Shown: in pieces, positions 3,899 through 60,731 of the stretch
Position numbering within the stretch: position 1 is the first letter of the stretch
How the letters are laid out: the number at the start of each line of letters is the position of its first letter
Assembly (NCBI RefSeq): GCF_003688895.1
Contig: NZ_REFV01000006.1
Span: 62,001-126,000 of the forward strand
Direction: 5' to 3'
DNA length: 64,000 nucleotides
DNA from: Dokdonia sinensis
GTDB taxonomy: Bacteria; Bacteroidota; Bacteroidia; Flavobacteriales; Flavobacteriaceae
The notes under the pieces: generated by a model
What the model saw: the letters and a program-made list of their open reading frames with translations, nothing else
Database searches by the model: none
Told to the model about the DNA's origin: nothing
Made by a program: the position numbers and the translations under genes

Positions 3899-3914
3899 CG
3901 CTTTCGCGAAAGCG
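3899..3914. repeat. Dispersed palindrome P1, copy 1
   Basis: Perfect 16 bp palindrome CGCTTTCGCGAAAGCG, directly behind the terminator of the cold-shock gene and 46 bp before the convergent thiE stop. Confidence 0.95.
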
Positions 3915-3960
3915 GAATAAGCAAAGTGCTCAGAGACATCTTAAAAGTCTACTCAAAATA

Positions 3961-4602
3961 CTATTTAAAACTATGTCGTTGCTCTTTGGTAGAGGATGCT
4001 CCTAGCAATTTATTAAAGCTCTTAATTTTGTTAAAGTCCTTAGTAATTTCTCCAGAAACAGCGATTCCAGAAATCCCAGTTGCCAAAAGAGGTGTAATAT
4101 CGTCCAGAGTAATACCACCTACGCCAAGTATAGGAGTTTCTGTTTTTAAGACATCTACAATGGCAGCGTATCCAGCAAGTCCTAATATTGTAGGTAGATT
4201 TTTTTTAGTTTCTGTAAACCGAAGAGGCCCCAAGCTTATATAGTCAACTTCTTTTTCGATTAAATTCTCGCAGTCTTGTAATGTGTTTGCCGTGCATCCT
4301 ATTATTTGCCAAGTATAGAGATGCCTTCTTGCTAGGGTAGGGCAGGTGTCATTTTTTCCTAGATGTACACCATCTGCTTTTACTTCTCTCGCGACCTTAT
4401 AGTAATCGTTTATGATGAGCCTAGTCTGGAAGTGGGCCGTAATTGCTCGAGCTTCCTGTGCTAATAGTAGTGCCCTCTTTTCTGATATATTTTTTAAACG
4501 CAGTTGTACTAACTCTGCACCGGCGTTGCACGCTTTTTGAATATTTTCTATATGATCATTTTGAGAGCTTCCTTGAGAAATGTAGTGTAGTTTTGGGATC
4601 AT
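3961..4602 (-). CDS. thiE: Thiamine phosphate synthase
   Basis: The 213-residue protein matches the ThiE/TenI barrel. Its motifs in order are VQLRLKN (QxRxK type, phosphate and pyrimidine site), IINDYYKVA and ADGVHLGKND, IIGCTANT, YISLGPLRFTETKK and GVGGIT. ThiE joins HMP-pyrophosphate to thiazole phosphate to give thiamine phosphate in the cytoplasm. The retained ND...VHLG and TxTKK signatures favour a real synthase over the TenI aminohydrolase branch. It is isolated here, with no thiC, thiG or thiS nearby, so it may be an additional copy or act in salvage. Confidence 0.85.
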   Translation of the reverse strand: MIPKLHYISQGSSQNDHIENIQKACNAGAELVQLRLKNISEKRALLLAQEARAITAHFQTRLIINDYYKVAREVKADGVHLGKNDTCPTLARRHLYTWQIIGCTANTLQDCENLIEKEVDYISLGPLRFTETKKNLPTILGLAGYAAIVDVLKTETPILGVGGITLDDITPLLATGISGIAVSGEITKDFNKIKSFNKLLGASSTKEQRHSFK

Positions 4603-4732
4603 TGTGAGGGTAATTTAAAAATAGAATATGAACCATTTTTAATTTGTACAAATATACGCCACATCTTCACGCAAGAATTTCATCAGTCCTTAAATCTATA
4701 TTAAACTACCTTTTTAGGGAAATAATAGATCG

Positions 4733-4740
4733 TATTTTTG
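4733..4740 (+). promoter_or_regulatory. Promoter -7 element (TAnnTTTG) for antiporter gene
   Basis: TATTTTTG is an exact fit to TAnnTTTG, 50 nt upstream of the antiporter start at 4791. Confidence 0.65.
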
Positions 4741-4790
4741 AGAGATACGTGATTTTAAAAACATTCTGAAAAACTAATAATAACAATGTA

Positions 4791-6050: not shown

Positions 6051-6082
6051 TCTCATTAAACCATCTTTTAAGGTTTAATAAA

Positions 6083-9140: not shown

Positions 9141-9160
9141 TACGCTTTCGCGAAAGCGTA
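9141..9160. repeat. Palindrome P1, copy 2 (20 bp form)
   Basis: Perfect 20 bp palindrome TACGCTTTCGCGAAAGCGTA, intergenic, 52 nt after the kinase stop codon. No conventional terminator is seen in this gap. Confidence 0.95.
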
Positions 9161-12496: not shown

Positions 12497-12546
12497 AGAA
12501 TTTGTAGTTTTTATGACCTTTTAGATGTATTTGAAATCGTGGCAAT

Positions 12547-12583
12547 TTTCGCGAACCTGCCTGTCCGGAAGGCAGGAGCGTAA
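12547..12583. repeat. Composite palindrome P1 interrupted by P2-like 21-mer
   Basis: TTTTCGCGAA and AGCGTAA are the two parts of a P1 copy. Between them lies CCTGCCTGTCCGGAAGGCAG plus G (12556-12576), a diverged form of the P2 palindrome. It sits 3 bp from the stop of the CotH gene. Confidence 0.88.
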
Positions 12584-12586
12584 CCA

Positions 12587-14091: not shown

Positions 14092-14109
14092 CGCTTTCGC
14101 GAAAAAGCG
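14092..14109. repeat. Palindrome P1, copy 3 (imperfect)
   Basis: CGCTTTCGCGAAAAAGCG has two extra A residues on one arm. It lies 9 bp from the stop codon of the DUF6090 gene. Confidence 0.85.
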
Positions 14110-14117: not shown

Positions 14118-14840
14118 CTACTCTTTTAATAATTTGTGTAAGTCCTCAATATCTTTTGCAATTAACTTTTTTGCTCTAAATAATTCTGCATAATAAGAGT
14201 CATACATAACAAGCTGAAGGTATGCAATGCGATTTCTAAAATCGCTACTCTCACTAAAATAGGTTTTACAGTCTTCATCGCATTTACTTTGTGTAATATA
14301 ATCTGCAAACCAAGGCTTGGTATCTTTTAGATAATTAAGATTATCAAACATTGTTTTTGTGATTACCTCGTCGTTAAAATCTCTTGACTGACTCAAAAAT
14401 TTATAGTGAGCAGCTATTTTTTGAAAAATTTCTTCTGAAATCACATTTTCAGTATCCATCGACGCTACAAGGTTGAGAACAGTATCGTCCAGCGTCGGAA
14501 GTGTAGCACTTATCATCATATCAGGACATCCATTGCAGTTAAGAATAGGCCCGTTAGAGGGTGTTAAGTAGAGAATGGTATCGATGGTTTCTTCTAGATA
14601 ATCCCACGCTTTTAGCACATTACTCATTTCTAATGTATCAGAAGCCATCAATTTCAGAAGCTTTTGAGATTTTTGACGATTTAATGCTTCTTTTTGATAC
14701 TCTTGGTTTTTGTTATTTACGGTAAGAGCTATCAAAATTCCAACGACCACTAAAAAGATCTCGCCAATGGCGTATAACAGATATTTCTGAAATCCCTTTC
14801 TAGGAATTAATCTTTCGCGAAAGCGCTTAAAAAATTTCAT
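14118..14840 (-). CDS. DUF6090 family membrane protein
   Basis: The 240-residue protein has the N-terminal layout of DUF6090: a basic start, then KYLLYAIGEIFLVVVGILIA, a single membrane helix (about residues 19-39), then N-N-K-N-Q and a long, probably extracytoplasmic helical domain. Two C-x2-C-like pairs (CNGC, CDEDC) in the soluble part may form disulfides. Proteins of this family often occur in Flavobacteriia, and no role is established that I know. A P1 palindrome forms codons 5-9 (R-F-R-E-R). It is divergent from the CDP-alcohol transferase. Confidence 0.85.
   Translation of the reverse strand: MKFFKRFRERLIPRKGFQKYLLYAIGEIFLVVVGILIALTVNNKNQEYQKEALNRQKSQKLLKLMASDTLEMSNVLKAWDYLEETIDTILYLTPSNGPILNCNGCPDMMISATLPTLDDTVLNLVASMDTENVISEEIFQKIAAHYKFLSQSRDFNDEVITKTMFDNLNYLKDTKPWFADYITQSKCDEDCKTYFSESSDFRNRIAYLQLVMYDSYYAELFRAKKLIAKDIEDLHKLLKE
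14812..14825. repeat. Palindrome P1, copy 4 (in DUF6090 CDS)
   Basis: CTTTCGCGAAAGCG inside the first ten codons of the DUF6090 gene, read as R-F-R-E on the minus strand. Confidence 0.9.
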
Positions 14841-18874: not shown

Positions 18875-18917
18875 TTACGCTCTTGAAACAAGTTCAGAGT
18901 AAATTTCGCGAAAGCGG
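18875..18917. repeat. Composite palindrome: P1 interrupted by P3
   Basis: TTACGCT (18875-18881) and TTCGCGAAAGCGG (18905-18917) are the two parts of a P1 copy. The 23 nt between them, core CTTGAAACAAGTTCAGAG, is the P3 unit also found at 6842. The break point in P1 is the same one used by P2 elsewhere. Confidence 0.85.
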
Positions 18918-21481: not shown

Positions 21482-22201
21482 TTATTGAACCCTACTTCTA
21501 GACGCACCTACAATTCCTTCTCTAGGAACATTTATGTAAACTATCGCATCAAGTTCATCATTAATTGAAACCCAACTAGGCAACTCGAGTTGCAGGTTTT
21601 TCTTTGCTTCGGCAGATTTACGTTGCGCAAAATTTGCAACGATATGAGTGTTTATTAATGTTTTGTTTCTGTTTTCGCCCCGCTTAACTTCGGTAGCCTT
21701 TTCCCTAACTGCGATGGCGTATGTGATTTGGGCATTGTACGGTAAGGAACCAAATTCAACGAGTAGATTGACCTTATTCTCCTTACGCGTCGCTCCATCT
21801 ATAACCACATTTACCTTTTCCTTTCGGTCACTATGTTTTATGATGGCATCCTTCATATGATGCTCGTTAGACCCTGTAAAATGTACTTGTTGGTTAATAA
21901 TGGCTTGCGGAGTATATACGGATGTGAGGTTATACGCTTTCGCGAAAGCGTACTGCTTCTCTGTATTTAGTTTAGAACCAAAAGGATCCTTCCAGCCGAT
22001 ATAATCCCAATAATCCACGTGATAAGAAAGGACAATGACATCGTCGCCGTATTCTTGAGAGACTTCGTCTAATAGCGCATCTGCAGGCGGACAACTGCTA
22101 CATCCTTGAGATGTAAATAGCTCGATAACCACGGGCTGTTGCGCAAAATTTATAAAAGAAGTAAGTATTAAAAGGGAAAACAGAAATTGCTTTAAAGACA
22201 T
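21482..22201 (-). CDS. DUF1223 thioredoxin-like secreted protein
   Basis: The 239-residue protein has a signal peptide (FLFSLLILTSFINFAQ). The DUF1223 domain starts VVIELFTSQGCSSCPPAD, with a thioredoxin-like C-x2-C at about residues 34-37. VLSYHVDYWDYIGWKDPF follows, strongly conserved in the family. The protein probably works in envelope thiol or redox chemistry, by fold only. A P1 palindrome encodes Y-A-F-A-K-A near residue 83, within the conserved helix after W-K-D-P-F. The gene is 63 bp upstream of the small secreted gene on the same strand. Confidence 0.9.
   Translation of the reverse strand: MSLKQFLFSLLILTSFINFAQQPVVIELFTSQGCSSCPPADALLDEVSQEYGDDVIVLSYHVDYWDYIGWKDPFGSKLNTEKQYAFAKAYNLTSVYTPQAIINQQVHFTGSNEHHMKDAIIKHSDRKEKVNVVIDGATRKENKVNLLVEFGSLPYNAQITYAIAVREKATEVKRGENRNKTLINTHIVANFAQRKSAEAKKNLQLELPSWVSINDELDAIVYINVPREGIVGASRSRVQ
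21933..21952. repeat. Palindrome P1, copy 5 (20 bp form, in DUF1223 CDS)
   Basis: Perfect TACGCTTTCGCGAAAGCGTA inside the coding region, read as Y-A-F-A-K-A on the minus strand. Confidence 0.95.
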
Positions 22202-25423: not shown

Positions 25424-26152
25424 ATGCAAATGCCAAAATGGTTATTCTTTCTGGTTCTTTTTTCCGCTGTTGCGCCTTCCCGCCGAAAAAAAATTAAGGT
25501 TTACGCTTTCGCGAAAGCGTTATCACTTTTAGTGCTCCTTTTTATAGGTGGGAAAGCGTACTCCCAAGACCTCGCCGTGCTCAAATATAAAGGCGGTGGC
25601 GACTGGTATAGTAACCCGACTGCGGTGCCCAATCTGATAAAGTACTGCAACCAAAATATAAACACGGCGATGAATGAAAAGCCCGAAACCGTGGAGCCAG
25701 GAAGCGTCGATATTTTCCAATTTCCATTGCTCCATATGACTGGTCACGGAAACGTTCTTTTTAACTCCGAAGACGCCGAAAATCTGCGCAATTACCTAGA
25801 AAGTGGCGGATTCATACACATAGACGACAACTACGGAATGTCAGAATACTTGCCAAAAGAGCTTAAAAAAATTTTCCCAGACCAAGAATTACAGGAATTA
25901 CCGGCAACACATCCCGTATTCTCAACTGCTTATAAATTCCCACAGGGTTTACCTAAAATTCACGAACACGACGGCAAGCGCCCACAGGCATTGGGCCTGT
26001 TTTTTGAAGAAAGACTAGTATTACTATTTACGACCGAAAGTGACCTAGGCGACGGCTGGGAAGACCCAGAAGTACACGGTGACCCGGAGTCCGTACGTCA
26101 ACAAGCACTACAGATGGGGGCTAATATTGTGAAGTATGCTTTTGAGAATTGA
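25424..26152 (+). CDS. DUF4159 domain secreted protein
   Basis: The likely start is ATG 25424 (242 residues), since the longer frame to 25307 is unlike a signal sequence. The N-terminus has two hydrophobic blocks, WLFFLVLFSAV and LSLLVLLFIGG, parted by a basic region and a P1 palindrome (Y-A-F-A-K-A). A cleavage-like KAYSQ follows the second block. The DUF4159 domain (from about residue 50) has LKYKGGGDWY, HMTGHGNVLF and GGFIHIDDNYG, and it ends in ANIVKYAFEN. The fold is like a class I glutamine amidotransferase without its cysteine. Its role is unknown. It is divergent from ppc. Confidence 0.87.
   Translation: MQMPKWLFFLVLFSAVAPSRRKKIKVYAFAKALSLLVLLFIGGKAYSQDLAVLKYKGGGDWYSNPTAVPNLIKYCNQNINTAMNEKPETVEPGSVDIFQFPLLHMTGHGNVLFNSEDAENLRNYLESGGFIHIDDNYGMSEYLPKELKKIFPDQELQELPATHPVFSTAYKFPQGLPKIHEHDGKRPQALGLFFEERLVLLFTTESDLGDGWEDPEVHGDPESVRQQALQMGANIVKYAFEN
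25504..25519. repeat. Palindrome P1, copy 6 (in DUF4159 signal region)
   Basis: Perfect 16 bp palindrome lying between two hydrophobic stretches of the N-terminus, read A-F-A-K-A. Confidence 0.95.
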
Positions 26153-28473: not shown

Positions 28474-28489
28474 GTACACTTTCGTGAAA

Positions 28490-30178
28490 ATGTTTAAATC
28501 CATACCCGCTCTTCTTATTGCCATTGTGGCTTTAGTCGTGATAAATGCCCTAGCATCATTAGCGCATAAGCGGTATGACCTTACCCAAGACCAGCGATAC
28601 ACGCTAAGTGATCCCGCCAAAGACGTACTGGACCAAATTCAAAGTCCGCTCATAGTAGATGTCTTTTTAGAAGGCGATTTCCCTGCGGAATTTAAACGGC
28701 TCCAAAACGAAACCCGCTACCTCCTAGAAGAAATAAACGACTATAATCCCAATATTAAGTTTGCCTTTTCAAAACCTGTGGAAGAAGGAGCAAATCCTGA
28801 CCAAATCGCACAGCAATTTGCAGATTTTGGGATGCAACCCGTAAACCTTACGGTAAAGAAAAACGGGAAGGAAACCCAAGAGCGTATATTCCCCTACGCC
28901 ACCGCAAACCATAATGACAAAGCGGTACCTATTTCTTTATTTAAAAATATTATGGGTGCGCCACGAGAGCAAGTGGTGTATGCTTCCATTCAAAATCTGG
29001 AATATCAATTTATAGATGGCTTTAATAAGCTCATCAACGCAAAATCAAAAAGAATAGCAGTACTGAGAGACAATGGCGAACTTCCAGATGCCCGCATTGC
29101 AGATATGTTCCGTACGCTGGGAGAGACATACTCCATCGCCCCATTCCCAATGGATGCGGTTGAGAAAGATGCCGAAAAGGCATTGAAAGCCCTGAACAAC
29201 ACCTTTGATCTTATCGTTGTCGCCAAACCCACAAAAGCATTTACCGATGCTCAAAAATACGTGCTAGATCAGTACACAATGAATGGCGGAAACTCGCTCT
29301 GGCTTCTAGACGCCGTAGCAATGGAAACGGACAGCCTGCGCAACGAGAGTGGACAAACACTTTCCTTCCCGCGCGAGCTCAACCTAAATGATATGTTCTT
29401 TAAGTATGGCGTACGTATCAATCCGCTATTGATTAAGGATCTGTATTCTGCTCCGCTTAGTCTGGCTTCTGGTGATGGCTCGCAGTCGCAGTACACGGAG
29501 TTACCTTGGTTCTATCAACCATTGGTTGTTGCGCCTAACACACACCCTATTAATACGAATATCGAGCGTCCTATTAAGTTTGAATATGCAAATCAGCTTG
29601 AGGTATTAAAAACTGCTCCAGATGTTCGGAAGACGGTGCTTTTGGGGTCTAGCGTGCTTACACAATTAGAAGGTGTTCCCAAAGTTATTTCGCTTGAACA
29701 AATTGATATAGAACCAGACCCGAAGCAGTTTTCTGCGGGACCGCAACCTTTGGCCGTACTGCTAGAAGGGACGTTTGAAAGTGCTTTTACAAATAGAGTA
29801 TTACCTGTTAAAACGGAGGATGTCCGCTTTCGCGAAAGCGGAATAACCCCCTCAAAAATGGTCGTTATTTCAGACGGAGATATCATTGCAAACGCACTGG
29901 ACCCAAAAGGGCGACCGCTGGAATTGGGGTTTGATTATCTCACAAGAACGCAATATGGCAACAAGGAATTTTTACAGAATACGGTGAACTACCTGCTGGA
30001 CGACACGGGGCTTATTAACATACGAAGTAAGGAAATTGCATTGCCTTTTCTGGATGTCCAAAAAACTGCGGTGACATTACCTACGTGGCAAGCCTTGACT
30101 ATCGGGCTTCCGTTAGTGTCTTTGGGGATATTTGGATTTATATTTTACAGTCTGCGCAAGCGCAAGTATGCACGCTAA
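28490..30178 (+). CDS. gldG: Gliding motility ABC transporter component GldG
   Basis: The protein of about 562 residues starts at ATG 28490 (a GTG two codons earlier is possible). One N-terminal helix (IPALLIAIVALVVINALA) is followed by the conserved KRYDLTQDQRYTLS and the ABC_transp_aux domain (VDVFLEGDFPAEF ... RIAVLRDNGE). A C-terminal helix (LTIGLPLVSLGIFGFIFY) ends the protein. GldG works with GldF in the envelope. A P1 palindrome encodes R-F-R-E-S near residue 446, in a loop before SKMVVISDGD. Confidence 0.94.
   Translation: MFKSIPALLIAIVALVVINALASLAHKRYDLTQDQRYTLSDPAKDVLDQIQSPLIVDVFLEGDFPAEFKRLQNETRYLLEEINDYNPNIKFAFSKPVEEGANPDQIAQQFADFGMQPVNLTVKKNGKETQERIFPYATANHNDKAVPISLFKNIMGAPREQVVYASIQNLEYQFIDGFNKLINAKSKRIAVLRDNGELPDARIADMFRTLGETYSIAPFPMDAVEKDAEKALKALNNTFDLIVVAKPTKAFTDAQKYVLDQYTMNGGNSLWLLDAVAMETDSLRNESGQTLSFPRELNLNDMFFKYGVRINPLLIKDLYSAPLSLASGDGSQSQYTELPWFYQPLVVAPNTHPINTNIERPIKFEYANQLEVLKTAPDVRKTVLLGSSVLTQLEGVPKVISLEQIDIEPDPKQFSAGPQPLAVLLEGTFESAFTNRVLPVKTEDVRFRESGITPSKMVVISDGDIIANALDPKGRPLELGFDYLTRTQYGNKEFLQNTVNYLLDDTGLINIRSKEIALPFLDVQKTAVTLPTWQALTIGLPLVSLGIFGFIFYSLRKRKYAR
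29825..29840. repeat. Palindrome P1, copy 7 (in gldG)
   Basis: Perfect CGCTTTCGCGAAAGCG inside gldG, read R-F-R-E-S. Confidence 0.95.
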
Positions 30179-31478: not shown

Positions 31479-31529
31479 GTTTAGAAACATCACTCGAGTA
31501 ATACCTTTAAGTATAATTTATGATGAGTA

Positions 31530-31545
31530 CGCTTTCGCGAAAGCG
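31530..31545. repeat. Palindrome P1, copy 8
   Basis: Perfect 16 bp palindrome, extended to GTACGCTTTCGCGAAAGCGT, intergenic and just upstream of the peptidase promoter. Confidence 0.95.
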
Positions 31546-31565
31546 TAATATTCCTACAAATTTGC

Positions 31566-34603: not shown

Positions 34604-35827
34604 ATGACAAATCAAGACCTTTTACAAGTGGTTCAAGAGTACGGTAGTCCCGTATATGTGTACAACGCTGAGAAAATTGAAGCTCAGTATAAACGCTTAA
34701 CAGCTGCTTTTAAAAAGGTCAAACAGGTCAAGATAAACTATGCCGTTAAGGCATTGAGCAATATTGCGATTCTCCAGACAATGAAAAACCTAGGAGCAGG
34801 ATTAGATACCGTTTCCATACAGGAAGTTAGACTAGGTCTGGCCGCTGGAGTAAAGCCAGAAAATATCATTTTTACTCCTAACGGTGTTTCTCTCTCCGAA
34901 ATAGAACGCGTGGCCGCAATGGGCGTTCAGATAAACATTGATAACCTTTCTATTTTAGAACAGTTTGGGACAAAGCATCCAAAAACACCTGTCTGCATAC
35001 GTATCAATCCGCACGTGATGGCGGGTGGGAATACAAATATTTCTGTGGGACATATTGATAGTAAATTTGGCATCAGCATCCACCAGATTCCGCATATCCT
35101 TCGTATTGTGGAAAATACGGGGATGAAAATAAACGGCGTGCATATGCACACGGGAAGCGATATTCTAGATATCGAAGTATTCCTTTATGCTTCGGAGATA
35201 TTGTTTGATACGGCAAAGCATTTTGAAGATTTGGAATTCATAGACTTCGGTAGTGGGTTCAAGGTGCCGTATAAAGAAGGAGATATAGAGACGGATATTG
35301 AGGAGTTTGGTGAGAAATTGGGGGAACGTTTTAACGCTTTCGCGAAAGCGTACAAAAAACCATTAACCCTCGCCTTCGAACCGGGCAAATTTCTCGTAAG
35401 CGAGGCTGGGAAATTCCTAGCTAGCGTAAATGTGGTCAAACAGACGACCTCGACCGTTTTTGCGCAAATAGATAGCGGTTTTAATCACTTGATACGTCCG
35501 ATGCTCTACGGAAGCCAGCACGAGATTCATAATATTTCAAATCCTGACGGAAAGCAACGATTTTATAGCGTGGTAGGTTACATCTGTGAGACGGACACCT
35601 TTGCAAACAACCGCCGTATTGCCGAAATAAGTGAAGAAGACATTCTTGCTTTTAGCAACGCTGGAGCCTACTGTTTCTCTATGGCTAGCAATTACAACAG
35701 CCGTTACCGTCCTGCAGAAGTGTTGTGGAAAAACGGGGAGTCACAACTCATCCGAAAGCGAGAAACCTTTGATGACTTAGTGCACAATCAGATTCCACTT
35801 AAAGAACTTCAATCTATAGAGGTATAA
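34604..35827 (+). CDS. lysA: Diaminopimelate decarboxylase
   Basis: From ATG 34604 the product is 407 residues. The PLP lysine is in INYAVKALSN (about residue 47). HMHTGSDI, FIDFGSGFKVPY and EPGKFLVSEAG are the barrel motifs that hold PLP phosphate and the substrate. GAYCFSMASNYNSRYRPAEV is the C-terminal active-site strand. It makes lysine from meso-DAP, the last step of the pathway. A P1 palindrome encodes N-A-F-A-K-A-Y near residue 245, in the helix before L-A-F-E-P-G-K. A terminator follows. Confidence 0.96.
   Translation: MTNQDLLQVVQEYGSPVYVYNAEKIEAQYKRLTAAFKKVKQVKINYAVKALSNIAILQTMKNLGAGLDTVSIQEVRLGLAAGVKPENIIFTPNGVSLSEIERVAAMGVQINIDNLSILEQFGTKHPKTPVCIRINPHVMAGGNTNISVGHIDSKFGISIHQIPHILRIVENTGMKINGVHMHTGSDILDIEVFLYASEILFDTAKHFEDLEFIDFGSGFKVPYKEGDIETDIEEFGEKLGERFNAFAKAYKKPLTLAFEPGKFLVSEAGKFLASVNVVKQTTSTVFAQIDSGFNHLIRPMLYGSQHEIHNISNPDGKQRFYSVVGYICETDTFANNRRIAEISEEDILAFSNAGAYCFSMASNYNSRYRPAEVLWKNGESQLIRKRETFDDLVHNQIPLKELQSIEV
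35335..35350. repeat. Palindrome P1, copy 9 (in lysA)
   Basis: Perfect CGCTTTCGCGAAAGCG in lysA, read as A-F-A-K-A within a helix of the barrel domain. Confidence 0.95.
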
Positions 35828-38545: not shown

Positions 38546-38584
38546 CGCTTTCGCGAACCTGCCTGCCGGCAGGCAGGAGCGTAA
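38546..38584. repeat. Composite palindrome: P1 interrupted by P2
   Basis: CGCTTTCGCGAA (38546-38557), then the perfect 20 bp palindrome CCTGCCTGCCGGCAGGCAGG (38558-38577), then AGCGTAA (38578-38584). Removing P2 restores an intact P1. Intergenic between divergent genes. Confidence 0.95.
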
Positions 38585-40352: not shown

Positions 40353-40401
40353 TTCAAAGTAAAAAAAGGTTCTCGGTATTTACTTCAAGAATCAATGTTT
40401 T

Positions 40402-40416
40402 GCTTTCGCGAAAGCG
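40402..40416. repeat. Palindrome P1, copy 10
   Basis: GCTTTCGCGAAAGCG, lacking only the first base of the core, lies 9 bp from the cysN stop, between convergent genes. Confidence 0.92.
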
Positions 40417-41700: not shown

Positions 41701-41742
41701 TTACGCTCCTGCCTGCCGGCAGGCAGGTTCGCGAAAGCGTAA
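41701..41742. repeat. Composite palindrome: P1 interrupted by P2 (intra-operon)
   Basis: TTACGCT (41701-41707), CCTGCCTGCCGGCAGGCAGG (41708-41727), then TTCGCGAAAGCGTAA (41728-41742). This is the same structure as 38546-38584 but in inverse orientation. It sits between cysD and cysN, so it is transcribed as a stable double hairpin. Confidence 0.95.
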
Positions 41743-42743: not shown

Positions 42744-43376
42744 TTATAGGTGTATACCGCACTCTCTATTTTCAAGTGCTTTTGTGGGGTCGTAATAGTT
42801 AAATTCGTTAGGTAACTGGTATTGCTCTAGATAGGTATCAAGCGCTTTGTCATCATAATGATAAAACGGACTTACCTTGAGCACTCCCTTTTTATCGGTA
42901 CTAAAAATATCCAATGTATCACGCAATGCCGTTTGCCCTTTGCGGAGGTTCGTAAACCACACGTCTGGCTGAAAAGTTTGCATTGCTCTTTTAAAGGGTT
43001 CTAGTTTTACTTGTTCTGTAAATAATACGTGTTCTGGTGTATCTACTTCTGGAATACCTAGGGTAATATTACGGTGAGCTACCGTTTGCTTAGGTACAAA
43101 TAATTGAATATTGAGACTAAGTGTATTAATCAATTCTTCTGCGTGCCTATAGGTATGTGCAGTATTGTACCCTGAGTCGCACCACAAGACCGGTATTTCT
43201 GGATGATTTTTTGTCACCAGATGTAAAATAGCAACCTCATAAGGCCTAAAGTTTGTTGTGATGACTGCGCGGTTTGCTTTCGCGAAAGCGTAAGAAACAA
43301 CTTCCTCTGGCGATGCTTTCCTAAATTTCTCATTGAGATGGGCTATCTCTGTCGGTGTGTGTGCCTTCATAGTCAT
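42744..43376 (-). CDS. cysH: Phosphoadenylyl-sulfate reductase
   Basis: From the ATG at 43376 the product is 210 residues. The ATG overlaps the stop of the DUF2061 gene (TAATG). VLWCDSGYNT near residue 65, WFTNLRKGQTALR, and the C-terminal RECGIHL (catalytic Cys) are CysH features. There is no C-C-x2-R-K or C-x2-C pair, so it lacks an iron-sulfur cluster and should use PAPS rather than APS. No APS kinase gene (cysC) is nearby. A P1 palindrome encodes A-F-A-K-A near residue 30, in the helix before the first strand. Confidence 0.93.
   Translation of the reverse strand: MTMKAHTPTEIAHLNEKFRKASPEEVVSYAFAKANRAVITTNFRPYEVAILHLVTKNHPEIPVLWCDSGYNTAHTYRHAEELINTLSLNIQLFVPKQTVAHRNITLGIPEVDTPEHVLFTEQVKLEPFKRAMQTFQPDVWFTNLRKGQTALRDTLDIFSTDKKGVLKVSPFYHYDDKALDTYLEQYQLPNEFNYYDPTKALENRECGIHL
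43276..43290. repeat. Palindrome P1, copy 11 (in cysH)
   Basis: GCTTTCGCGAAAGCG in cysH, read on the minus strand as Y-A-F-A-K-A. Confidence 0.93.
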
Positions 43377-43639
43377 TATTTCCCCCATTGAATACGATTC
43401 CAAATGCGTTCGTGAAAAAAGTAGAGTAAGAGCTTGGTTACAAAATCTATAGAAGCGATGGAAGTCGCAAGCAACCATTCTCCTGTCAGTAAGTATGATA
43501 CTAATAGCGTATCAATCGTACCGATGAGGCGCCAGCTTATAGCTTTGACAACACTTCTAAGAGGTTTTTCGTTAGAAATATCTGCCGTGTACCGCTTCTT
43601 ATATCCCTTATTTGAAATGAGTATTTGGTCTAAAATCAT
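43376..43639 (-). CDS. DUF2061 domain membrane protein
   Basis: The 87-residue product (ATG 43639; a TTG three codons earlier is possible) has the DUF2061 layout: SVVKAISWRLIGTIDTLLVSYLLTG and a second helix, ending KLLLYFFHERIWNRIQWG. DUF2061 proteins have two membrane segments. It is first in the cys operon and overlaps cysH by the TAATG junction, which supports coupled translation and a link to sulfate assimilation. Whether it helps sulfate uptake is an inference from position. Confidence 0.88.
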   Translation of the reverse strand: MILDQILISNKGYKKRYTADISNEKPLRSVVKAISWRLIGTIDTLLVSYLLTGEWLLATSIASIDFVTKLLLYFFHERIWNRIQWGK

Positions 43640-45723: not shown

Positions 45724-45760
45724 AATGGTTGTTTTTTGATAGTGTAAATATTGGGATTTG

Positions 45761-45778
45761 TACGCTTTCGCGAAAGCG
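45761..45778. repeat. Palindrome P1, copy 12
   Basis: TACGCTTTCGCGAAAGCG, intergenic in the 77 bp gap between the DUF2306 and TPR-like genes. Confidence 0.94.
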
Positions 45779-45800
45779 GAACCTCCCCAACCGTCATTTA

Positions 45801-46469
45801 TCACGACCGAATTGTAGTTTTCTTAGGAATTCTGGTTCTCCTGAGCCAATATGTAATAAATATAACGCCAAAAACTGTGGGTAGTAACCAACTCAATAGC
45901 GCCGGCAAGACATTATTGGTCACAAAGAATGCGGTAAAAGAGGCTATGTATGCTCCAGAAATTTTTCCAATATGTAAACGTATACTCTTCTTCCGAAGCA
46001 TTTTTAAATCTCTGAAGGCTCTTAAGTCGATAGACGCATTAAAGATGGCAATTAAGCCAAACACTATAAGAATAGTTCCCATATTAGCCCCTCGAACAAT
46101 AGAAGAAACTCCAAAAAATATCATTCCTAGACCAACTATGAACATTCCCCAAGAAAGTATTTTATCCCAAAGTAATTGCTCCTGTGACTTTATACGCTTA
46201 AATCGTAACGCCCGATATCCAGATAAAACCAAATAGAAACTGAATAAACCGACGACAAATAAAAATGGATTGACATGTCCCGGAATAAAGGATGCTACAA
46301 CTCCCGATAAACTGGCAACGAGCATCCCATAATAAAAAATAATCCCTGACTTTTTATGCCAGCGCCCGCCCTTTCTTGCGATTACCGAGATAGTTCCCGC
46401 GAGAAGTGAAATGCTCCCAAAGAGCGCGTGTATAGAAATAAATATTGTAAAAAATTGGTCGATGGTCAT
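45801..46469 (-). CDS. DUF2306-like membrane protein
   Basis: The product is 222 residues from ATG 46469 (ATG 46469 is preferred over 46490). It has about six membrane segments. IHALFGSISLLAGTISVIARKGGRWHKKSGIIFYYGML is the typical DUF2306 opening, with the R-x-W-H-K-K-x-G element. The later RLHIGKISGAYIASFTAF fits the second half of the domain. The function is not known to me. It is co-directional with the TPR and kinase genes. Confidence 0.82.
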   Translation of the reverse strand: MTIDQFFTIFISIHALFGSISLLAGTISVIARKGGRWHKKSGIIFYYGMLVASLSGVVASFIPGHVNPFLFVVGLFSFYLVLSGYRALRFKRIKSQEQLLWDKILSWGMFIVGLGMIFFGVSSIVRGANMGTILIVFGLIAIFNASIDLRAFRDLKMLRKKSIRLHIGKISGAYIASFTAFFVTNNVLPALLSWLLPTVFGVIFITYWLRRTRIPKKTTIRS

Positions 46470-50828: not shown

Positions 50829-51332
50829 ATGGCTGATCGACAACTATCCCATACAGACCACTCAAAACCGCATATATCAAAACAAATTATATTGATGTGT
50901 GATGGCGTTCAAAGTCCTGCCAATATAGGGTCATTATTTCGTCTAGGAGATGCTTTTGGCGTAGATGAAATAATTTTTGGAGGGGTACAGATAGACCTTT
51001 CGAGCAATAGACTGCGTAGGACGGCGCGCAATACGTATGAGGTTGTCCGCTTTCGCGAAAGCGAATACCTTACCACTACCCTTACTCAACTCCACAGCGA
51101 GGGATATTCTAGTATCGCTCTCGAGATTACACAAAACAGCATCCCAATAGACCAAATCAAAACAAAACCCAAAAAAGTGGTGCTCATCATAGGGAATGAG
51201 CGCAATGGCGTTTCTGAAGAACTCCTCAAACTCTCACAACATACTGCCCATATACCTATGTTAGGAAATAATAGCAGTATGAATGTGGCTCAGGCCGCTG
51301 CGATTGCTTTTTATGAATTGCGACGTAAATAA
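50829..51332 (+). CDS. SpoU/TrmH-family RNA 2'-O-methyltransferase
   Basis: The 167-residue protein has the three SPOUT motifs: QSPANIGSLFRLGDAFG (1), VLIIGNERNGVS (2) and IPMLGNNSSMNVAQAAAIAFYE (3), forming the knotted SAM site. It methylates a ribose in tRNA or rRNA; the position cannot be told. It is shorter than TrmH, with no N-terminal RNA-binding domain. A P1 palindrome encodes R-F-R-E-S near residue 74, in the middle of the domain. Confidence 0.93.
   Translation: MADRQLSHTDHSKPHISKQIILMCDGVQSPANIGSLFRLGDAFGVDEIIFGGVQIDLSSNRLRRTARNTYEVVRFRESEYLTTTLTQLHSEGYSSIALEITQNSIPIDQIKTKPKKVVLIIGNERNGVSEELLKLSQHTAHIPMLGNNSSMNVAQAAAIAFYELRRK
51048..51063. repeat. Palindrome P1, copy 13 (in TrmH-family gene)
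   Basis: Perfect CGCTTTCGCGAAAGCG in the gene, read as V-R-F-R-E-S-E. Confidence 0.95.
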
Positions 51333-51350: not shown

Positions 51351-52439
51351 GTGAATTCAAAAGCAATAGCTTACGGTATATTACGGGCGCTTGGCATCCT
51401 TGCTGGGATATTTTTTTTGCTATGGTTTCTATATGAAATACAGAGTGTCCTTGTTTATCTAGCCGTGGCAGCTGTGATTTCATTAATAGGTAGACCTATC
51501 ACTATTTTCTTAAAGCGTAGGCTTAAAATGGGAGATACGTGGGCAGCGATAACTACTATACTCTTTGTATTTCTGTTTATTGCTGGAGTCCTTACGCTTT
51601 TTATTCCTGTGATTATAGATCAAAGCGCGCACCTCTCCAACATCGATTTTAATGAGGTGAAGGTAAGTATTGATAGGCTTTACGGAGAAATTGCCGAATA
51701 TTTTGGGGTTAGTCGCACAACGATCATTAGGAGCGTCCAAGAATCCAATTTTATAAAGGATATTGACTTTGGCATTATACCGAGTTTCTTAAATGGGATC
51801 ATTGGTAACCTAGGTGCTGCGCTTATTGGGATATTTTCTGTCATTTTTATTACGTTCTTTTTCCTAAAAGATAGCAGACTTTTAGTAAGCAGTATTCTCG
51901 TGTTTGCAAATCGTGGTAATGAGGGTAAATTTCTTAGAGTTTTTGAAAAAATTAAGTACCTGCTTTCCCGCTACTTTATCGGTTTATTATTGCAAGTATT
52001 TATAATGTTTGTTTTGTACTCCATTATTCTAAATTTCTTTAGTGTAGAAAATGCTTTTGCTGTGGCGCTTTTTTGTGCTACACTTAATCTTGTACCTTAT
52101 TTAGGACCATTAGTAGGTGGTGGCGTAATGCTTTTACTGGCAACATCAAGTAATCTTGATGCCGATTTCCAAACGGTGATATTGCCCAACCTTATATACA
52201 TATCTATATGCTACGGTTTTGCGCAGCTCATAGATAACTTTATATTACAACCCAAAATTTTTGGGAATAGTGTAAAATCTCATCCTCTGGAGGTTTTTCT
52301 TGCGATAATTATTGCGGGATTATTATTTGGTGTAATCGGAATGGTACTTGCAATTCCTACGTATACAGCTATTAAGGTTATCTCAAATGAGTTCTTAAGC
52401 GAATATAAAATTGTACAGAATCTAACGCGTGACCTGTGA
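51351..52439 (+). CDS. AI-2E family transporter
   Basis: The 362-residue protein has about eight membrane segments, with the start LRALGILAGIFFLLWFLYEI and the C-terminal LGPLVGGGVMLLL and IVGPKIFGNSVKSHPLEVFLA-like region (here LQPKIFGNSVKSHPLEV). Members export AI-2 or other small molecules (TqsA, YdiK) or act as Na+/H+ antiporters. Substrate unknown. It starts with GTG 51351. Its TGA overlaps the GTG of the next gene (GTGA), so translation is coupled. Confidence 0.91.
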   Translation: MNSKAIAYGILRALGILAGIFFLLWFLYEIQSVLVYLAVAAVISLIGRPITIFLKRRLKMGDTWAAITTILFVFLFIAGVLTLFIPVIIDQSAHLSNIDFNEVKVSIDRLYGEIAEYFGVSRTTIIRSVQESNFIKDIDFGIIPSFLNGIIGNLGAALIGIFSVIFITFFFLKDSRLLVSSILVFANRGNEGKFLRVFEKIKYLLSRYFIGLLLQVFIMFVLYSIILNFFSVENAFAVALFCATLNLVPYLGPLVGGGVMLLLATSSNLDADFQTVILPNLIYISICYGFAQLIDNFILQPKIFGNSVKSHPLEVFLAIIIAGLLFGVIGMVLAIPTYTAIKVISNEFLSEYKIVQNLTRDL

Positions 52440-53620
52440 TTAACGAGGCATTATTTACAGATGAAGTCCAAGCTTATCTTGCAGCCCACGAGAGCACACC
52501 AATTTCTAGTTTTATCTTTAAAGGAAGTCCATTTTCTGAGATAACGATACAAGAACTAGCTCAGCAGCTCGAAGGAAAACGCCGGGCAAAAGAGAAACTT
52601 CCGCTTTGGTACGAAACCGATGGAATAATTTTCCCACCCAAACTTAACCTTGAGCAAACATCCTCTGCGCAAACGGCAACGTACAAAGCCAGTTTAATTA
52701 CAGGTCAAACTTTAGTTGACGGTACAGGTGGTTTTGGAATAGATAGCTACTATTTCTCTCAAGTTGTTCCCGAGGTTATCCATGTAGAAATGAATGCCAA
52801 GTTATCCGCTTTCGCGAAAGCGAACTTCAAAACTCTAAAAGCCAAAAATATAACTTGTGTAGCAGGCGATTCCATTTCCTATTTCCAGAACACGGAGGAT
52901 ACCTACGACACTATTTTTTTAGATCCAGGAAGAAGAAACGACAACAAAGGCAAAGTCTTTATGCTCGCCGATTGTTTACCAAATGTTCCTGCATCATTGC
53001 TATTGTTGCTTTCTAAATGTAAGACCCTTTGGGTTAAAACTGCGCCTATGCTGGATATTGCCGCAGGGCTAAGAGAACTACACAATGTCACAGAAATTCA
53101 TATCGTTGCGGTAAAAAACGAGGTTAAGGAATTGCTTTGGAAAATAGAGGGGAAAGTTTCACCTACTGGATTGCGGGTGCATTGTGTAAATTTAAATGAA
53201 AGATCGAGCGACCATATAACGATGAGTTATGAAGCTTTAATTCTTGCTAGTGCGACATATGGAAATGTGGCGAACTTTCTCTACGAGCCTATGGCAACGC
53301 TTATGAAAGCAGGCGCCTTTCAATGGGTTTCTGGTCATTTTAAGCTAGCCAAACTTCACGAGCATTCGCATCTCTATACTTCTAAAGACCTCGTAGAGTT
53401 TCCTGGTAGACGATTTAAGGTAATAGATGTGCTCCCTTTCTCAAAATCTTTGCGCAAGCACATAAAGTTTGCAAAGGCAAATGTGACAACGAGGAACTTT
53501 CCATTATCTGTAGAAGAAATTAGAAAACGTCTCAAAATAAAAGAGGGTGGTAAAGATTATTTGTTCTTTACCACCCTCGATAAAAACCATAAGGTTGTTA
53601 TCGTATGTAAGAAAATTTAA
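52436..53620 (+). CDS. SAM-dependent methyltransferase, THUMP-like
   Basis: The 394-residue protein starts with GTG overlapping the AI-2E stop (GTGA). A helical N-terminal region is followed by LVDGTGGFGIDSYYF (SAM motif I, about 93-107), VEMNAKL (motif II) and the catalytic-like LDPGRRND. The C-terminal THUMP-like domain has LYEPMATLMKAGAFQ and FPGRRFKV. The Bacteroidetes family is annotated as THUMP-like class I methyltransferase, probably acting on RNA. A P1 palindrome encodes A-F-A-K-A just after motif II. The last 80 bases include a perfect 14 bp hairpin that serves the opposite strand. Confidence 0.9.
   Translation: MINEALFTDEVQAYLAAHESTPISSFIFKGSPFSEITIQELAQQLEGKRRAKEKLPLWYETDGIIFPPKLNLEQTSSAQTATYKASLITGQTLVDGTGGFGIDSYYFSQVVPEVIHVEMNAKLSAFAKANFKTLKAKNITCVAGDSISYFQNTEDTYDTIFLDPGRRNDNKGKVFMLADCLPNVPASLLLLLSKCKTLWVKTAPMLDIAAGLRELHNVTEIHIVAVKNEVKELLWKIEGKVSPTGLRVHCVNLNERSSDHITMSYEALILASATYGNVANFLYEPMATLMKAGAFQWVSGHFKLAKLHEHSHLYTSKDLVEFPGRRFKVIDVLPFSKSLRKHIKFAKANVTTRNFPLSVEEIRKRLKIKEGGKDYLFFTTLDKNHKVVIVCKKI
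52807..52822. repeat. Palindrome P1, copy 14 (in methyltransferase gene)
   Basis: Perfect palindrome, read as S-A-F-A-K-A-N, in the helix after SAM motif II. Confidence 0.95.
53543..53578 (-). terminator. Terminator embedded in the convergent methyltransferase CDS
   Basis: GAGGGTGGTAAAGA (53543-53556) and TCTTTACCACCCTC (53565-53578) are perfect 14 bp arms with an 8 nt loop. On the minus strand the stem is followed by TTTTATTTT, as an intrinsic terminator. It lies 39 bp beyond the stop of the PepSY-like gene and within the coding sequence of the + gene. Confidence 0.7.
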
Positions 53621-54919: not shown

Positions 54920-54956
54920 GAGCTCTTCTTACTGAGCTGATGTAGGTCAGTCTTTA

Positions 54957-54971
54957 GCTTTCGCGAAAGCG
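54957..54971. repeat. Palindrome P1, copy 15
   Basis: GCTTTCGCGAAAGCG (missing the first base), 14 bp from the stop of the alcohol dehydrogenase gene, before its terminator. Confidence 0.92.
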
Positions 54972-54985: not shown

Positions 54986-56035
54986 CTATTTCAATGACTC
55001 CATATCAATTACAAATCGATATTTTACATCGGAGTCCTGTACACGTTTGTAAGCTTTATTAATGTTATCCATATCGATCATTTCTACATCACTCACGATA
55101 TTGTGTTTTCCACAAAAATCTAACATTTGCTGCGTTTCTTTAATACCACCTATTAAAGAACCTGCAATATTCTTACGTCCCATTATAAGATTACCGCCAT
55201 GCACTTCTGGAAGAGGTTCAATGGCTCCTACCATACACATCGTCCCATCAATAGTCAATAATTGTAAATACGGATTTACATCGTGGCTTACGGGAACTGT
55301 ATTAAGGATGAAGTCAAAACTTCCTCTGTGTTTTTTCATAGCTTCATCATCCTTCGAAATTAATACACCGTCTGCTCCCAGTCGCTTCGCATCTTCCTTT
55401 TTAGACTCAGAAGTTGTAATCATAATAGTTTCTGCGCCCATTGCGTGAGAAAATTTGATTCCCATATGTCCGAGACCGCCTAGTCCAACGACTCCTACTT
55501 TCATACCTTCTTTAATATTCCAATGGTTTAGAGGGGAATATGTAGTAATACCAGCGCACAACAATGGTGCAACGGCTTTAATATCTAAATTTTCAGGAAT
55601 ACTCAGTACAAAATGCTCATCTACTGTAATTTGTTGAGAATATCCTCCAAAGGTATGTACACCTAAGTGTTTATCCTTTCCGTTGTAAGTACCGACCATT
55701 CCTTCTTGGCAAAATTGCTCCAAATCTTTTTTACAAGGATCACACTCACGACAAGAATCTACCATACATCCCACGCCTACTAGATCTCCTTTTTTAAAGT
55801 TCTTTACTTTATCTCCAACTTCTAATACTTCACCTATGATTTCGTGTCCAGGTACGACTGGATATTTAGAATTGCCCCAATCATTTTCTACTGTATGGAT
55901 ATCGCTATGACAAACACCACAATACGTAATTTTAATCTTTACATCTTTGGGCTGTGTATCACGACGCTCAATGGTCATCTCTTTAAGGGCGGCTCCTTTA
56001 TCTTTTGCTCCGTATGCTTTTATTTCTGTGCTCAT
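54986..56035 (-). CDS. Zinc-dependent alcohol dehydrogenase (YahK/CAD type)
   Basis: From ATG 56035 the product is 349 residues. Catalytic-zinc motifs are ITYCGVCHSDIH (Cys) and VVPGHEIIGEV (His-Glu); CRECDPCKKDLEQFC holds the structural zinc cysteines. GVVGLGGLGHMG is the NAD(P)-binding loop near residue 177. It should reduce aldehydes with NADPH, like the YahK/YjgB group. The longer frame to 56092 would begin with a P1 palindrome (A-F-A-K-A) and is not needed. It is monocistronic. Confidence 0.95.
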   Translation of the reverse strand: MSTEIKAYGAKDKGAALKEMTIERRDTQPKDVKIKITYCGVCHSDIHTVENDWGNSKYPVVPGHEIIGEVLEVGDKVKNFKKGDLVGVGCMVDSCRECDPCKKDLEQFCQEGMVGTYNGKDKHLGVHTFGGYSQQITVDEHFVLSIPENLDIKAVAPLLCAGITTYSPLNHWNIKEGMKVGVVGLGGLGHMGIKFSHAMGAETIMITTSESKKEDAKRLGADGVLISKDDEAMKKHRGSFDFILNTVPVSHDVNPYLQLLTIDGTMCMVGAIEPLPEVHGGNLIMGRKNIAGSLIGGIKETQQMLDFCGKHNIVSDVEMIDMDNINKAYKRVQDSDVKYRFVIDMESLK

Positions 56036-56063
56036 ATTTTTTTTGGTTTCGATTAAAGGTAAG

Positions 56064-56083
56064 TACGCTTTCGCGAAAGCGTA
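56064..56083. repeat. Palindrome P1, copy 16 (20 bp form)
   Basis: TACGCTTTCGCGAAAGCGTA, intergenic between the alcohol dehydrogenase start and the YihY stop. Confidence 0.95.
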
Positions 56084-56109
56084 GCTACTCACGCAACTTT
56101 GTAATTATT

Positions 56110-58804: not shown

Positions 58805-58816
58805 AGAAATATCACG

Positions 58817-60550
58817 ATGAAAAATTATATATATAAATTTATTTGTGTGGTTATGGTCTCCGCTTTCGCGAAAGCGCAATCCCCACAAGACATATTTCAG
58901 GCCGCAGGAACACCGTCTAATCCCAAGGTTTCGGTAGCCTTTAATCAGTACTACACCGCCGAAGGACTTGCTGAAATCGGAAAGAAAATCGCCGATGCTC
59001 ATCCCAAGCTCGTAAAGCGGATGTCCATAGGAAAATCAACCGAAGGACGAGACATCTGGCTCCTCGCCATAACCGACTCTAGCACAGGAAATCCTGACCG
59101 TAAACCCGGATTTTATCTGGACGGAAACATACACTCTAACGAAATTCAAGGTGGGGAGATAAGCACGTACACAGCTTGGTACTTGACAGAAAGTTTTGGC
59201 AAAGTGCCATACATCACAGAGATGCTCAAGGATCGTATTTTTTACATTGTAGCAACCATAAATCCCGATGCACGTAACAATTATATGAAGGAGCCTAACA
59301 CAGGCAGTAGCCCCAGAGCAGGAATGATTGCGCTGGATGATGATAGTGATGGGCTTTTTGACGAAGATGGTTACGATGACCTTGATGGAGACGGTTCCAT
59401 CACTCAGATGCGTCGCAAGAGCGCAACGGGAGATTATATAATTAATCCACAGGACCCACGCAGGATGATTCGTATAGGCCCCGATGATGTGGTAACGGGA
59501 CAGCGTTATGAAATGCTAGGTCGCGAGGGAATCGATAACGACGGAGATGGCGTGATAAACGAAGATACACCTGGTTATTACGACCCCAACCGTGATTGGG
59601 GATGGAAATGGCAACCCGATTACGTACAGCGCGGAGCCTATAAATATCCGTTTTCTGCCCCAGAAACAAGAGCGGTTGCAGATTTTGTAAAAGCCCACCC
59701 TAATATTGCGGGAGCCCAGAGTTTTCACAATAGTGGAGGAATGATTTTAAGAGGCCCCGGCGCCGAGGAGGATAAGGACACCTACAATCGCGCAGATGTT
59801 GCCATATACGACGCTATAGGAAAAAAAGGCGAAGAGCTATTGCCGGGTTATAATTATCTCACAGTGTACAAAGATTTATATTCTGTTTTTGGTGGTGAGT
59901 TGGATTGGTTTTACGGAGGTCGTGGGATTTATACCTTCACAAACGAGATCTTCACAGGCTTTGCTTACTATAAAAATAAAGACGGCGATCGCGACCAAAT
60001 TTATGATGCTGGAAAAGACCTTCTATTAGGCGACGGATTCACACCTTTTAAAGCGTATAATCATCCCACGTATGGAGAAATAGAGATAGGCGGATTTAAG
60101 AAGAACGTAGGTCGAGCGACACCTGGATTTATGCTGGAGGAAGAAGCACACCGTAATATGGTTTTTGTTTTTTATCACGCTTTCCATATGCCTCATCTTT
60201 CGGTTGGCGATGTTTCTGTAAAATCATTACCTAATGGTTACAAAGAAGTTACCGCCACTATTGTAAACAATCGCTTAATGCCTACGCACGCAAGTCAAGA
60301 TTTAAAATACAACATCGAAAGACCAGATTATATCAAACTTTCTGGTGCAAAAGTACTAGCAGGGATGATAGTCGAAGACGCTGACTTTAACGTGACGAAG
60401 GAGCAGAAAAACAACCCTGAATCTATTCAAGTAAAAAATATCCCAGGAAACGATAAAGTAATGGTACGCTGGATTGTAAAAGGTGGCAATACGATGACCA
60501 TTACTGTGGATAGTGCAAAAGGTGGACTGGTCGAACACAAGGTTAAGTAG
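58817..60550 (+). CDS. M14 family zinc carboxypeptidase, secreted
   Basis: The 577-residue enzyme has a signal peptide whose end (SAFAKAQ) is encoded by a P1 palindrome. The M14 zinc ligands are in LDGNIHSNEIQGGE (H-x2-E, about residues 107-110) and QSFHNSGG (His near 302). The catalytic Glu is in FTNEIFTGFAYY near 375. Two calcium-binding-like loops, DDDSDGLFDEDGYDDLDGDG and DNDGDGVINED, are inserted. It likely removes C-terminal residues from peptides in the periplasm or outside the cell. It shares an operon with the degenerate paralogue at 57203. Confidence 0.94.
   Translation: MKNYIYKFICVVMVSAFAKAQSPQDIFQAAGTPSNPKVSVAFNQYYTAEGLAEIGKKIADAHPKLVKRMSIGKSTEGRDIWLLAITDSSTGNPDRKPGFYLDGNIHSNEIQGGEISTYTAWYLTESFGKVPYITEMLKDRIFYIVATINPDARNNYMKEPNTGSSPRAGMIALDDDSDGLFDEDGYDDLDGDGSITQMRRKSATGDYIINPQDPRRMIRIGPDDVVTGQRYEMLGREGIDNDGDGVINEDTPGYYDPNRDWGWKWQPDYVQRGAYKYPFSAPETRAVADFVKAHPNIAGAQSFHNSGGMILRGPGAEEDKDTYNRADVAIYDAIGKKGEELLPGYNYLTVYKDLYSVFGGELDWFYGGRGIYTFTNEIFTGFAYYKNKDGDRDQIYDAGKDLLLGDGFTPFKAYNHPTYGEIEIGGFKKNVGRATPGFMLEEEAHRNMVFVFYHAFHMPHLSVGDVSVKSLPNGYKEVTATIVNNRLMPTHASQDLKYNIERPDYIKLSGAKVLAGMIVEDADFNVTKEQKNNPESIQVKNIPGNDKVMVRWIVKGGNTMTITVDSAKGGLVEHKVK
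58861..58876. repeat. Palindrome P1, copy 17 (in signal peptide of M14 peptidase)
   Basis: Perfect CGCTTTCGCGAAAGCG at codons 16-20 of the gene, read A-F-A-K-A, immediately before the likely cleavage site. Confidence 0.95.
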
Positions 60551-60573
60551 ATTTATTATCACATATTTAGAAA

Positions 60574-60609
60574 AACACAGGGGACGGAGATAATTCCGCC
60601 CCCTGTGTT
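60574..60609 (+). terminator. Terminator after the M14 operon
   Basis: AACACAGGGGACGGA and TCCGCCCCCTGTGTT form a 15 bp stem with one mismatch and a 6 nt loop; the T run (GTTTCGGG) is weak. Confidence 0.65.
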
Positions 60610-60694
60610 GTTTCGGGCTTTGCTAAGAGATAATCCAACTAATTTAATTTTTAACTAGGAATTATTCCATAATATCGGATTATGTGTTATTTTA

Positions 60695-60731
60695 GCTTTC
60701 GCGAAAGTTTAATCTGAACTCGTTTCAGATT
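60695..60731. repeat. P1 remnant joined to a P3-like hairpin
   Basis: GCTTTCGCGAAAG (60695-60707, P1 with one end lost) is followed after TTT by AATCTGAACTCGTTTCAGAT plus T (60711-60731). The latter is a self-complementary unit related to the reverse complement of P3. Intergenic upstream of the exonuclease gene. Confidence 0.75.

Follow-up and report, generated by a model that had tools for sequence, protein, structure and literature searches.

A 64,000-nucleotide stretch of the Dokdonia sinensis genome (contig NZ_REFV01000006.1, positions 62,001 to 126,000; hereafter the window) carries many dispersed copies of a palindromic 16-mer, CGCTTTCGCGAAAGCG, with the central 12-mer CTTTCGCGAAAG. Our data indicate that this palindrome is a maintained, spaced, dyad recognition site. 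By analogy, it may serve as a self tag of the DNA-uptake-sequence kind, a tentative reading to which we assign a rough probability of 0.4. The host genome, G000, comprises 3,647,482 bases in 43 contigs, and a 464-kb sample of it combined the window with 400 kb of contig C1; reversed words served as controls.

In the whole host genome, 630 exact copies of the 16-mer were counted against 0 of the reversed word, and 917 copies of the 12-mer against 2. The 464-kb sample held 113 copies of the 12-mer, compared with 5 of the runner-up palindromic 12-mer, and the window held 23 matches with no more than three mismatches, compared with a mean of 0.17 (maximum 2) in shuffled sequence. The abundance noticed in the initial annotation thus exceeds what base composition would give, and it extends beyond the window to the rest of the genome and, with hundreds of copies, to other genomes.

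The taxonomic range was surveyed in three overlapping samples, comprising 397 genomes of 237 genera for the family, 395 genomes for the order (searched with the 12-mer) and 296 genomes for the phylum (searched with the 16-mer). At least one copy was found in 48 of the 397 family genomes, and only six genomes held more than 13: G000 (630) and G371 (576) of genus g1; G010 (495), G241 (579) and G394 (448) of genus g11; and G190 (153) of genus g191. All 23 genomes of g11 that were searched carried the palindrome, at 180 to 737 copies. Whole-genome counts for g1 were limited to G000 and G371, and 200-kb stretches of four further members, G417, G418, G419 and G421, each contained 47 to 56 copies of the 12-mer. 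Apart from G000 and G010, no genome of the order sample exceeded 19 copies of the 12-mer; in the phylum sample, the 16-mer was present in nine genomes, with at most two copies in any but G000. High counts are therefore confined, among the sampled genomes, to g1, g11 and g191. No description of the palindrome was found in the open-licence literature searched, although it may have been described elsewhere. A scan of 10-mers in loci of at least 9 kb from other genera (five shorter loci were skipped), which is a weak test, detected no word recurring like the palindrome; in five of these loci an A/T-rich word rose to 5 copies, which is not above the level in the carrier loci L025 and L105.

Close relatives were compared site by site. 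Between G418 and G417, which are 77.3% identical over 143 kb, 28 sites were common, and 4 and 6 were present in one genome only (28 shared of 38 sites in all). In 53 site observations from this pair, counted from both sides and omitting sites less than 80 bases from an alignment end, identity was 94.3% in the 12-mer, 89% at the next two bases, 71-76% at outward positions 3-20 and ~74-75% at outward positions 31-80. Among six genome pairs compared in both directions, 358 cores showed no difference, 23 showed one, 0 showed two and 18 showed three or more. Because the core stands at 94.3% against 71-75% at outward positions 5-80, and 358 comparisons are without any difference, we conclude that the core is maintained while the flanking sequence drifts.

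The sites also keep their distance from each other. When six stretches were pooled (contig C1 of G000, the window, G417, G418 and two stretches of G241), only 3 of 245 gaps were shorter than 1 kb, compared with 53.3 expected by random placing; gaps of 1.5 to 6 kb were in excess, and those above 8 kb were too few (15 versus 34). Short gaps were depleted in all seven stretches analyzed individually, and the coefficient of variation lay below random in all seven, significantly so for the 12-mer in four, with G418, G421 and G419 falling short of significance. It appears that one site serves 1-2 kb on each side. Together, the conserved core and the even spacing support maintenance as a protein-binding type of site, one of the options offered in the initial annotation, which had missed both the exclusion spacing and a compositional bias in the flanks.

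This bias is strand-polar. Reading outward from the 16-mer on either side, the frequency of G is 0.07 across ~18 bp, with C and A raised and a GC skew of -0.58; G recovers from ~20 bp and is near 0.20 past 160 bp. With a biased flank of ~18 bp on each side, the unit is ~52 bp long, consisting of the 16-mer core and two tracts poor in G on the outward strand. Eight control palindromes gave flank skews of -0.04 to +0.05, and the skew faded as core mismatches rose from 1 to 5 (-0.50, -0.32, -0.27, -0.21 and -0.03, respectively). The bias held in genes at all three sense-strand codon positions as well as in intergenic DNA (128 gene and 108 intergenic sites, with 15 edge sites excluded), and at outward positions 6-13 in G000 the skew was -0.64 in genes and -0.68 in spacers. 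At these positions it was -0.71 in G241 (74 flanks), -0.88 in G394 (20 flanks) and -0.44 in G371 (32 flanks), and weaker in G190 (-0.29, 36 flanks). A weak added pattern following the 12-mer, with A at outward positions 4, 5, 8 and 11, was clearest in intergenic sites and in the AFAKA reading frame (see below), and less so in the other frames.

The differences between G418 and G417 bear on how the flanks are kept. Changes to G were about half as frequent near sites as far off (0.030 versus 0.054 per base), and exchanges among A, C and T were as frequent near sites as far away or more so. The flank code is thus compositional, with A, C and T exchanging freely and G disfavoured; we know of no genome watermark that shows such a code. 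In six rows from ~4 loci, the frequency of flank G was 0.134 without the core, 0.079 with the core and 0.21 far away. In-gene identity was slightly lower near sites than far from them in the pairs involving G417 (0.70-0.77 versus 0.76-0.78), so that mutation and selection are both possible sources of the flank bias. Local deamination fits poorly as the cause of the bias, since in-gene A/G exchanges were rarer near sites than far from them in all five pairs. An extended hairpin was rejected as well, symmetric flank positions matching no better than shuffled partners, so that their likeness is limited to composition. The strand-polar flanks suggest a reader that opens or tracks one strand beside the core.

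The half-site GCGAAAGCG occurred outside the TTCGCGAA context in only 9 of 226 cases in the 464-kb sample (1.5 expected), some of them probably decayed dyads, indicating that the whole dyad is the unit. Because half-sites are so few outside the dyad, the site is probably read by a homodimeric or two-fold symmetric protein.

In the window, 12 exact copies, three with one mismatch and two with two mismatches make up the 17 exact or near-exact copies counted in the initial annotation. The clipped copy (60694) and the four composites (12547, 18875, 38546 and 41701) that it claimed are present; its tally of 17, two and four came with only 22 positions, and the individual places withstood checking. 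Two further matches absent from its list, at 36336 and 62909, have three mismatches each and may be due to chance. A 20-bp form, TA...TA, accounts for four copies in the window and for 22 of the 85 exact copies in the 464-kb sample. The copies are as follows, with the strand unassigned throughout:

3899..3914, exact 16-mer, outside the listed open reading frames (ORFs)
9141..9160, exact 16-mer (9143) within the 20-bp TA...TA palindrome, outside the listed ORFs; right 18 bases with 0 G, left 18 with 0 C
12544..12580, composite of TTTTCGCGAA, a CCTGCC..GGCAGG hairpin and AGCG, intergenic
14092..14107, copy with two mismatches
14810..14825, copy with two mismatches, close to an ORF start
18875..18916, composite in which a CTTGAA..TTCAGAG hairpin separates CGCT from TTTCGCGAAAGCG
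21933..21952, exact 16-mer (21935), 20-bp form, in ORF 21482-22201 (DUF1223), frame AFAKA
25504..25519, exact 16-mer in ORF 25307-26152 (DUF4159), frame AFAKA
29825..29840, exact 16-mer in gldG (28484-30178), frame RFRES, at a position common to G371, L025 and G190
31528..31547, exact 16-mer (31530), 20-bp form, between an ORF ending at 31416 and one starting at 31594
35335..35350, exact 16-mer in lysA (34556-35827), frame AFAKA; an equal-length FCK-type sequence in g11 and G076
38546..38581, composite with a 20-bp CCTGCC..GGCAGG palindrome, intergenic
40401..40416, copy with one mismatch
41704..41739, composite in the opposite orientation, intergenic
43275..43290, copy with one mismatch in ORF 42744-43478 (PAPS reductase family)
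45763..45778, exact 16-mer close to the start of ORF 45100-45804
51048..51063, exact 16-mer in ORF 50829-51332 (SpoU methylase family), frame RFRES
52807..52822, exact 16-mer in ORF 52436-53620 (THUMP-like domain), frame AFAKA
54956..54971, copy with one mismatch, just outside ORF 54986-56092
56064..56083, exact 16-mer (56066), 20-bp form, at the start of ORF 54986-56092
58861..58876, exact 16-mer close to the start of ORF 58817-60550
60694..60709, clipped copy, a 12-bp palindrome

The closest named record to gldG is from an uncultured Dokdonia (73% identical). L026, a related metagenome-assembled genome whose 21.7-kb locus lacks the exact 16-mer, has near 11.3 kb, at the gldG position of the carriers, a version of the site with two mismatches, possibly a decayed site.

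Among 142 classified cores, 84 lie in ORFs and 58 are intergenic. With ORFs making up 89-91% of the sequence, site density is higher in spacers, although most sites are still in genes. The 84 in-gene cores are read in the frames AFAKA (48), LSRK (21) and RFRES (15). The intergenic copies comprise 41 in tandem, 10 in divergent and 7 in convergent spacers (22085, 10130 and 8667 spacer bases, respectively); convergent spacers are thus not favoured, and a terminator role was rejected.

Copies within genes differ between genomes by substitution. The lysA site encodes NAFAKAY in G000, G371 and G190, and at unchanged length the corresponding sequence is NQFCADY in G394, NKFCKEY in G010 and G241, and NKFCKTY in G076. 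Where G417 and the G418 group differ in coding-looking sequence (gene context unclassified), about 6 of the 12 core bases were changed with no indel, and the differences listed among the closer relatives G418, G421 and G419 were mostly single core substitutions; at one locus, G417 had a 41-bp indel carrying a site. Partner proteins were searched in a panel of 25 genomes, comprising eight carriers (G000, G371, G417, G418, G190, G241, G010 and G394) and 17 others, of which G076, G101 and G160 hold 12, 4 and 2 copies. The Y1_Tnp domain of RAYT transposases was found in 13 of the 25, including carriers G000 (weak), G241, G010 and G394, and was not found in carriers G371, G417, G418 and G190. Given equal-length replacement and the missing Y1 transposase in these four carriers, insertion or transposition of the simple site was rejected for the coding copies examined. 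The replicative spread suggested in the initial annotation is therefore not supported for simple sites in genes, and the Y1 transposase expected of a RAYT-type partner was missing from four of the eight carriers.

In-gene site positions were compared between genera. For 8 of 14 aligned g1 sites, the counterpart in g191 was at the identical position, and for 1 it was nearby; from g191 to g1, the figures were 3 of 4 and 1 nearby. From g1 to g11, 0 of 21 sites were at the same place (1 nearby), these 21 cases representing ~12 different genes because several g1 genomes repeat a gene; the values were 0 of 10 (1 nearby) from g11 to g1 and 0 of 3 from g11 to g191. Counterparts were best matches of at least 40% identity in partial sequence, some of which may be paralogues. 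Since g1 and g191 share positions and g1 and g11 share none, the mark was probably put in separately in two lineages, or else turned over completely. A DnaN tree grouped g1 with G190 and L026 (97/94) and g11 with G076 elsewhere (90/84); as a single-gene tree, it cannot decide between the two. Tentatively, the palindrome may represent a new kind of chromosome mark, in which a dyad core and two polar G-poor tracts would form one ~52-bp unit. A symmetric machine that requires one such unit every few kb would read it, and substitution would have established it on two occasions, in different flavobacterial lineages that had each come to carry the same reader.

We favour a self tag because substitution origin, in-gene residence, even spacing and lineage specificity are traits of uptake sequences. 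Kin DNA bearing the tag would be preferentially taken up or recombined in, and tags would spread through molecular drive; one tag would serve the surrounding 1-2 kb and a second one nearby would bring no gain, which would produce the exclusion zone. The palindrome resembles the uptake sequences DUS and USS of Neisseriaceae and Pasteurellaceae in its hundreds or more of copies, over-represented genome-wide in and between genes, in the even spacing reported for them and in its lineage specificity. According to PMC1939737, which cites Karlin on this point, the spacing of uptake sequences is significantly even; the share lying within ORFs is given there as 65% in H. influenzae and 35% in N. gonorrhoeae. 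In G418, G421 and G419, DNA that did not align to relatives was poor in sites (3 sites in 47.6 kb, compared with 0.22-0.27 per kb in shared DNA), and this deficit points toward a self tag.

Several observations weigh against a self tag. The non-aligned DNA of G417 showed no deficit (9 sites in 37 kb), and some of the non-aligned DNA may represent ends of the fetched range. An intracellular role predicts identical spacing. Known uptake sequences are short and non-palindromic, whereas the site here is a perfect palindrome whose half-site seldom stands alone; compared with DUS and USS it is also longer (a 16-bp core, ~52 bp in total), with strand-polar flanks and a sharp exclusion zone. A flank bias of this type is not known to us from uptake sequences. 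ComEC-like proteins matched in all 25 panel genomes, which agrees with a self tag, but always below the curated cut-off and also in 17 of 17 genomes outside the high-count genera, so that they do not discriminate. Very even spacing of uptake sequences is itself doubted in a passage of PMC1939737. The self tag is a candidate drawn by analogy.

Nearly as likely as a self tag is an intracellular site for chromosome architecture, segregation or repair, in which a dimeric chromosome protein would need one site per few kb and cellular selection would keep both spacing and sequence. The scarcity of short gaps and of very long ones, the strong conservation of the core, the need for the full dyad and the undiminished site density in the non-aligned DNA of G417 all agree with such a site. 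The site-poor non-aligned DNA of the three other genomes does not, strand-polar flanks are in our judgement unusual for plain double-strand binding, and no candidate protein was found.

A Chi-like signal for recombination or end processing is unlikely. An AddAB-type enzyme would stop at the site, and RecA would be loaded on the strand 5' of the site, which by symmetry is G/T-rich on both sides. Indeed, a C-poor, G/T-rich run of ~18 nt leads into the site on either strand, as the strand leading into Chi is G/T-rich, and the density resembles the one Chi per 4-5 kb of E. coli. RecC, and hence RecBCD, was found in 0 of the 25 panel genomes, by which RecBCD/Chi itself was rejected and an AddAB-type end processor is made likely. 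Known Chi sites, however, are short words with a direction, recognized on a single strand, whereas the site here is dyad-symmetric and its half-site rarely occurs without the mirror half.

Less likely still is a by-product of DNA methylation and mismatch repair, as proposed for the cyanobacterial palindrome HIP1, with which the initial annotation had drawn an analogy. The analogy stands in so far as HIP1 and other iterated cyanobacterial palindromes are perfect, dispersed through coding and non-coding DNA at high frequency, and the palindrome here likewise arises by substitution. Saturation is a prediction of the HIP model too, at about one site per 1000 nt (PMC4390886). The mechanism is not supported: outside TTCGCGAA, the short core TCGCGA shows no enrichment (49 in 464 kb versus 64 in all by composition), and the cytosine-5 methylase family, found in 14 of 25 panel genomes, was present in carriers G000, G417, G010 and G394 and was not found in G371, G418, G241 and G190, the adenine and N4 classes lying outside the search. 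Moreover, the mark is longer and rarer than HIP1 (630 exact copies in 3.65 Mb) and has biased flanks, and a 16-mer core with 18-bp flanks is larger than a usual methylase site.

A mobile palindrome of the REP/RAYT or MITE type copying itself to new places is very improbable, because REP elements are mainly extragenic and arrive as insertions, whereas 84 of the 142 sites lie in ORFs, clear in-gene differences are equal-length replacements (as in lysA), flanks are alike in composition and not in sequence, and Y1_Tnp is missing in half of the carriers tested. What speaks for mobility, besides the 41-bp site-bearing indel in G417, is the composite form of the mark, whose intergenic copies resemble REP/BIME elements; the latter are palindromic too. 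In three of the window composites, a CCTGCC..GGCAGG hairpin lies exactly between TTCGCGAA and AGCG, and the fourth has a different hairpin. CCTGCC composites with this fixed joint number 21 in G000 and 18 across five other g1 genomes, and were found in 6 of 18 g1 genomes in all (loci L125-L132). A loose hairpin pattern gave 10 matches in the 464-kb sample, of which nine were composites or decayed composites, all intergenic, and the tenth was in a gene and unrelated. A related hairpin, CCTGTC..GACAGG, with a slightly different joint, stands in G371 at a place where L025 has a simple near-exact site. The composites may have a separate origin, as a mobile or hairpin-growth product for which the mark is the landing place. 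A second composite type carries ATTT-containing inserts at the same joint (window 18875-18916; C1 near 277102 and 322635), and its window copy bears the CTGAACTTGTTTCAAG hairpin.

A further dispersed, conserved palindrome of obscure role, 18 nt long and over-represented in Caldithrix abyssi, differs in its few copies (38 exact cores), its intergenic preference and its lack of conservation beyond 18 nt, according to passages of PMC5317091.

The mark provides a quantitative genome-wide signal, with hundreds of natural copies and clear gains and losses between close relatives, and the flank rule predicts which sequences a reader has to accept. If the mark does prove to be a self tag, it would to our knowledge be the first identified in the phylum. 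It would also offer a model for the self-preference of another flavobacterium, Riemerella columbina, which prefers its own DNA and whose tag is not established (PMC7965970). If architectural, it would give a bacterial chromosome a molecular ruler of a few kb. Under either reading, gene flow may be traceable through the mark.

In eight other genera examined, stray copies (L234-L243; G078, G087, G308, G101, G012, G144, G111 and G336) lie on related islands that share stretches ~68-89% identical to L234. The one annotated island, L234, encodes an RND pump, an outer membrane channel, a multicopper oxidase, an ArsP-type permease and two P-type ATPases, which we read as metal resistance; the mark on these islands may trace their origin. 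At least one exact 16-mer was also found on 30 viral contigs (41 stretches, L153-L193), and viral stretches with the 16-mer showed a weaker flank skew of -0.26 (64 sites). Finally, AAGTTGG units, a tandem-like word, recurred ~15 times in the 464-kb sample.

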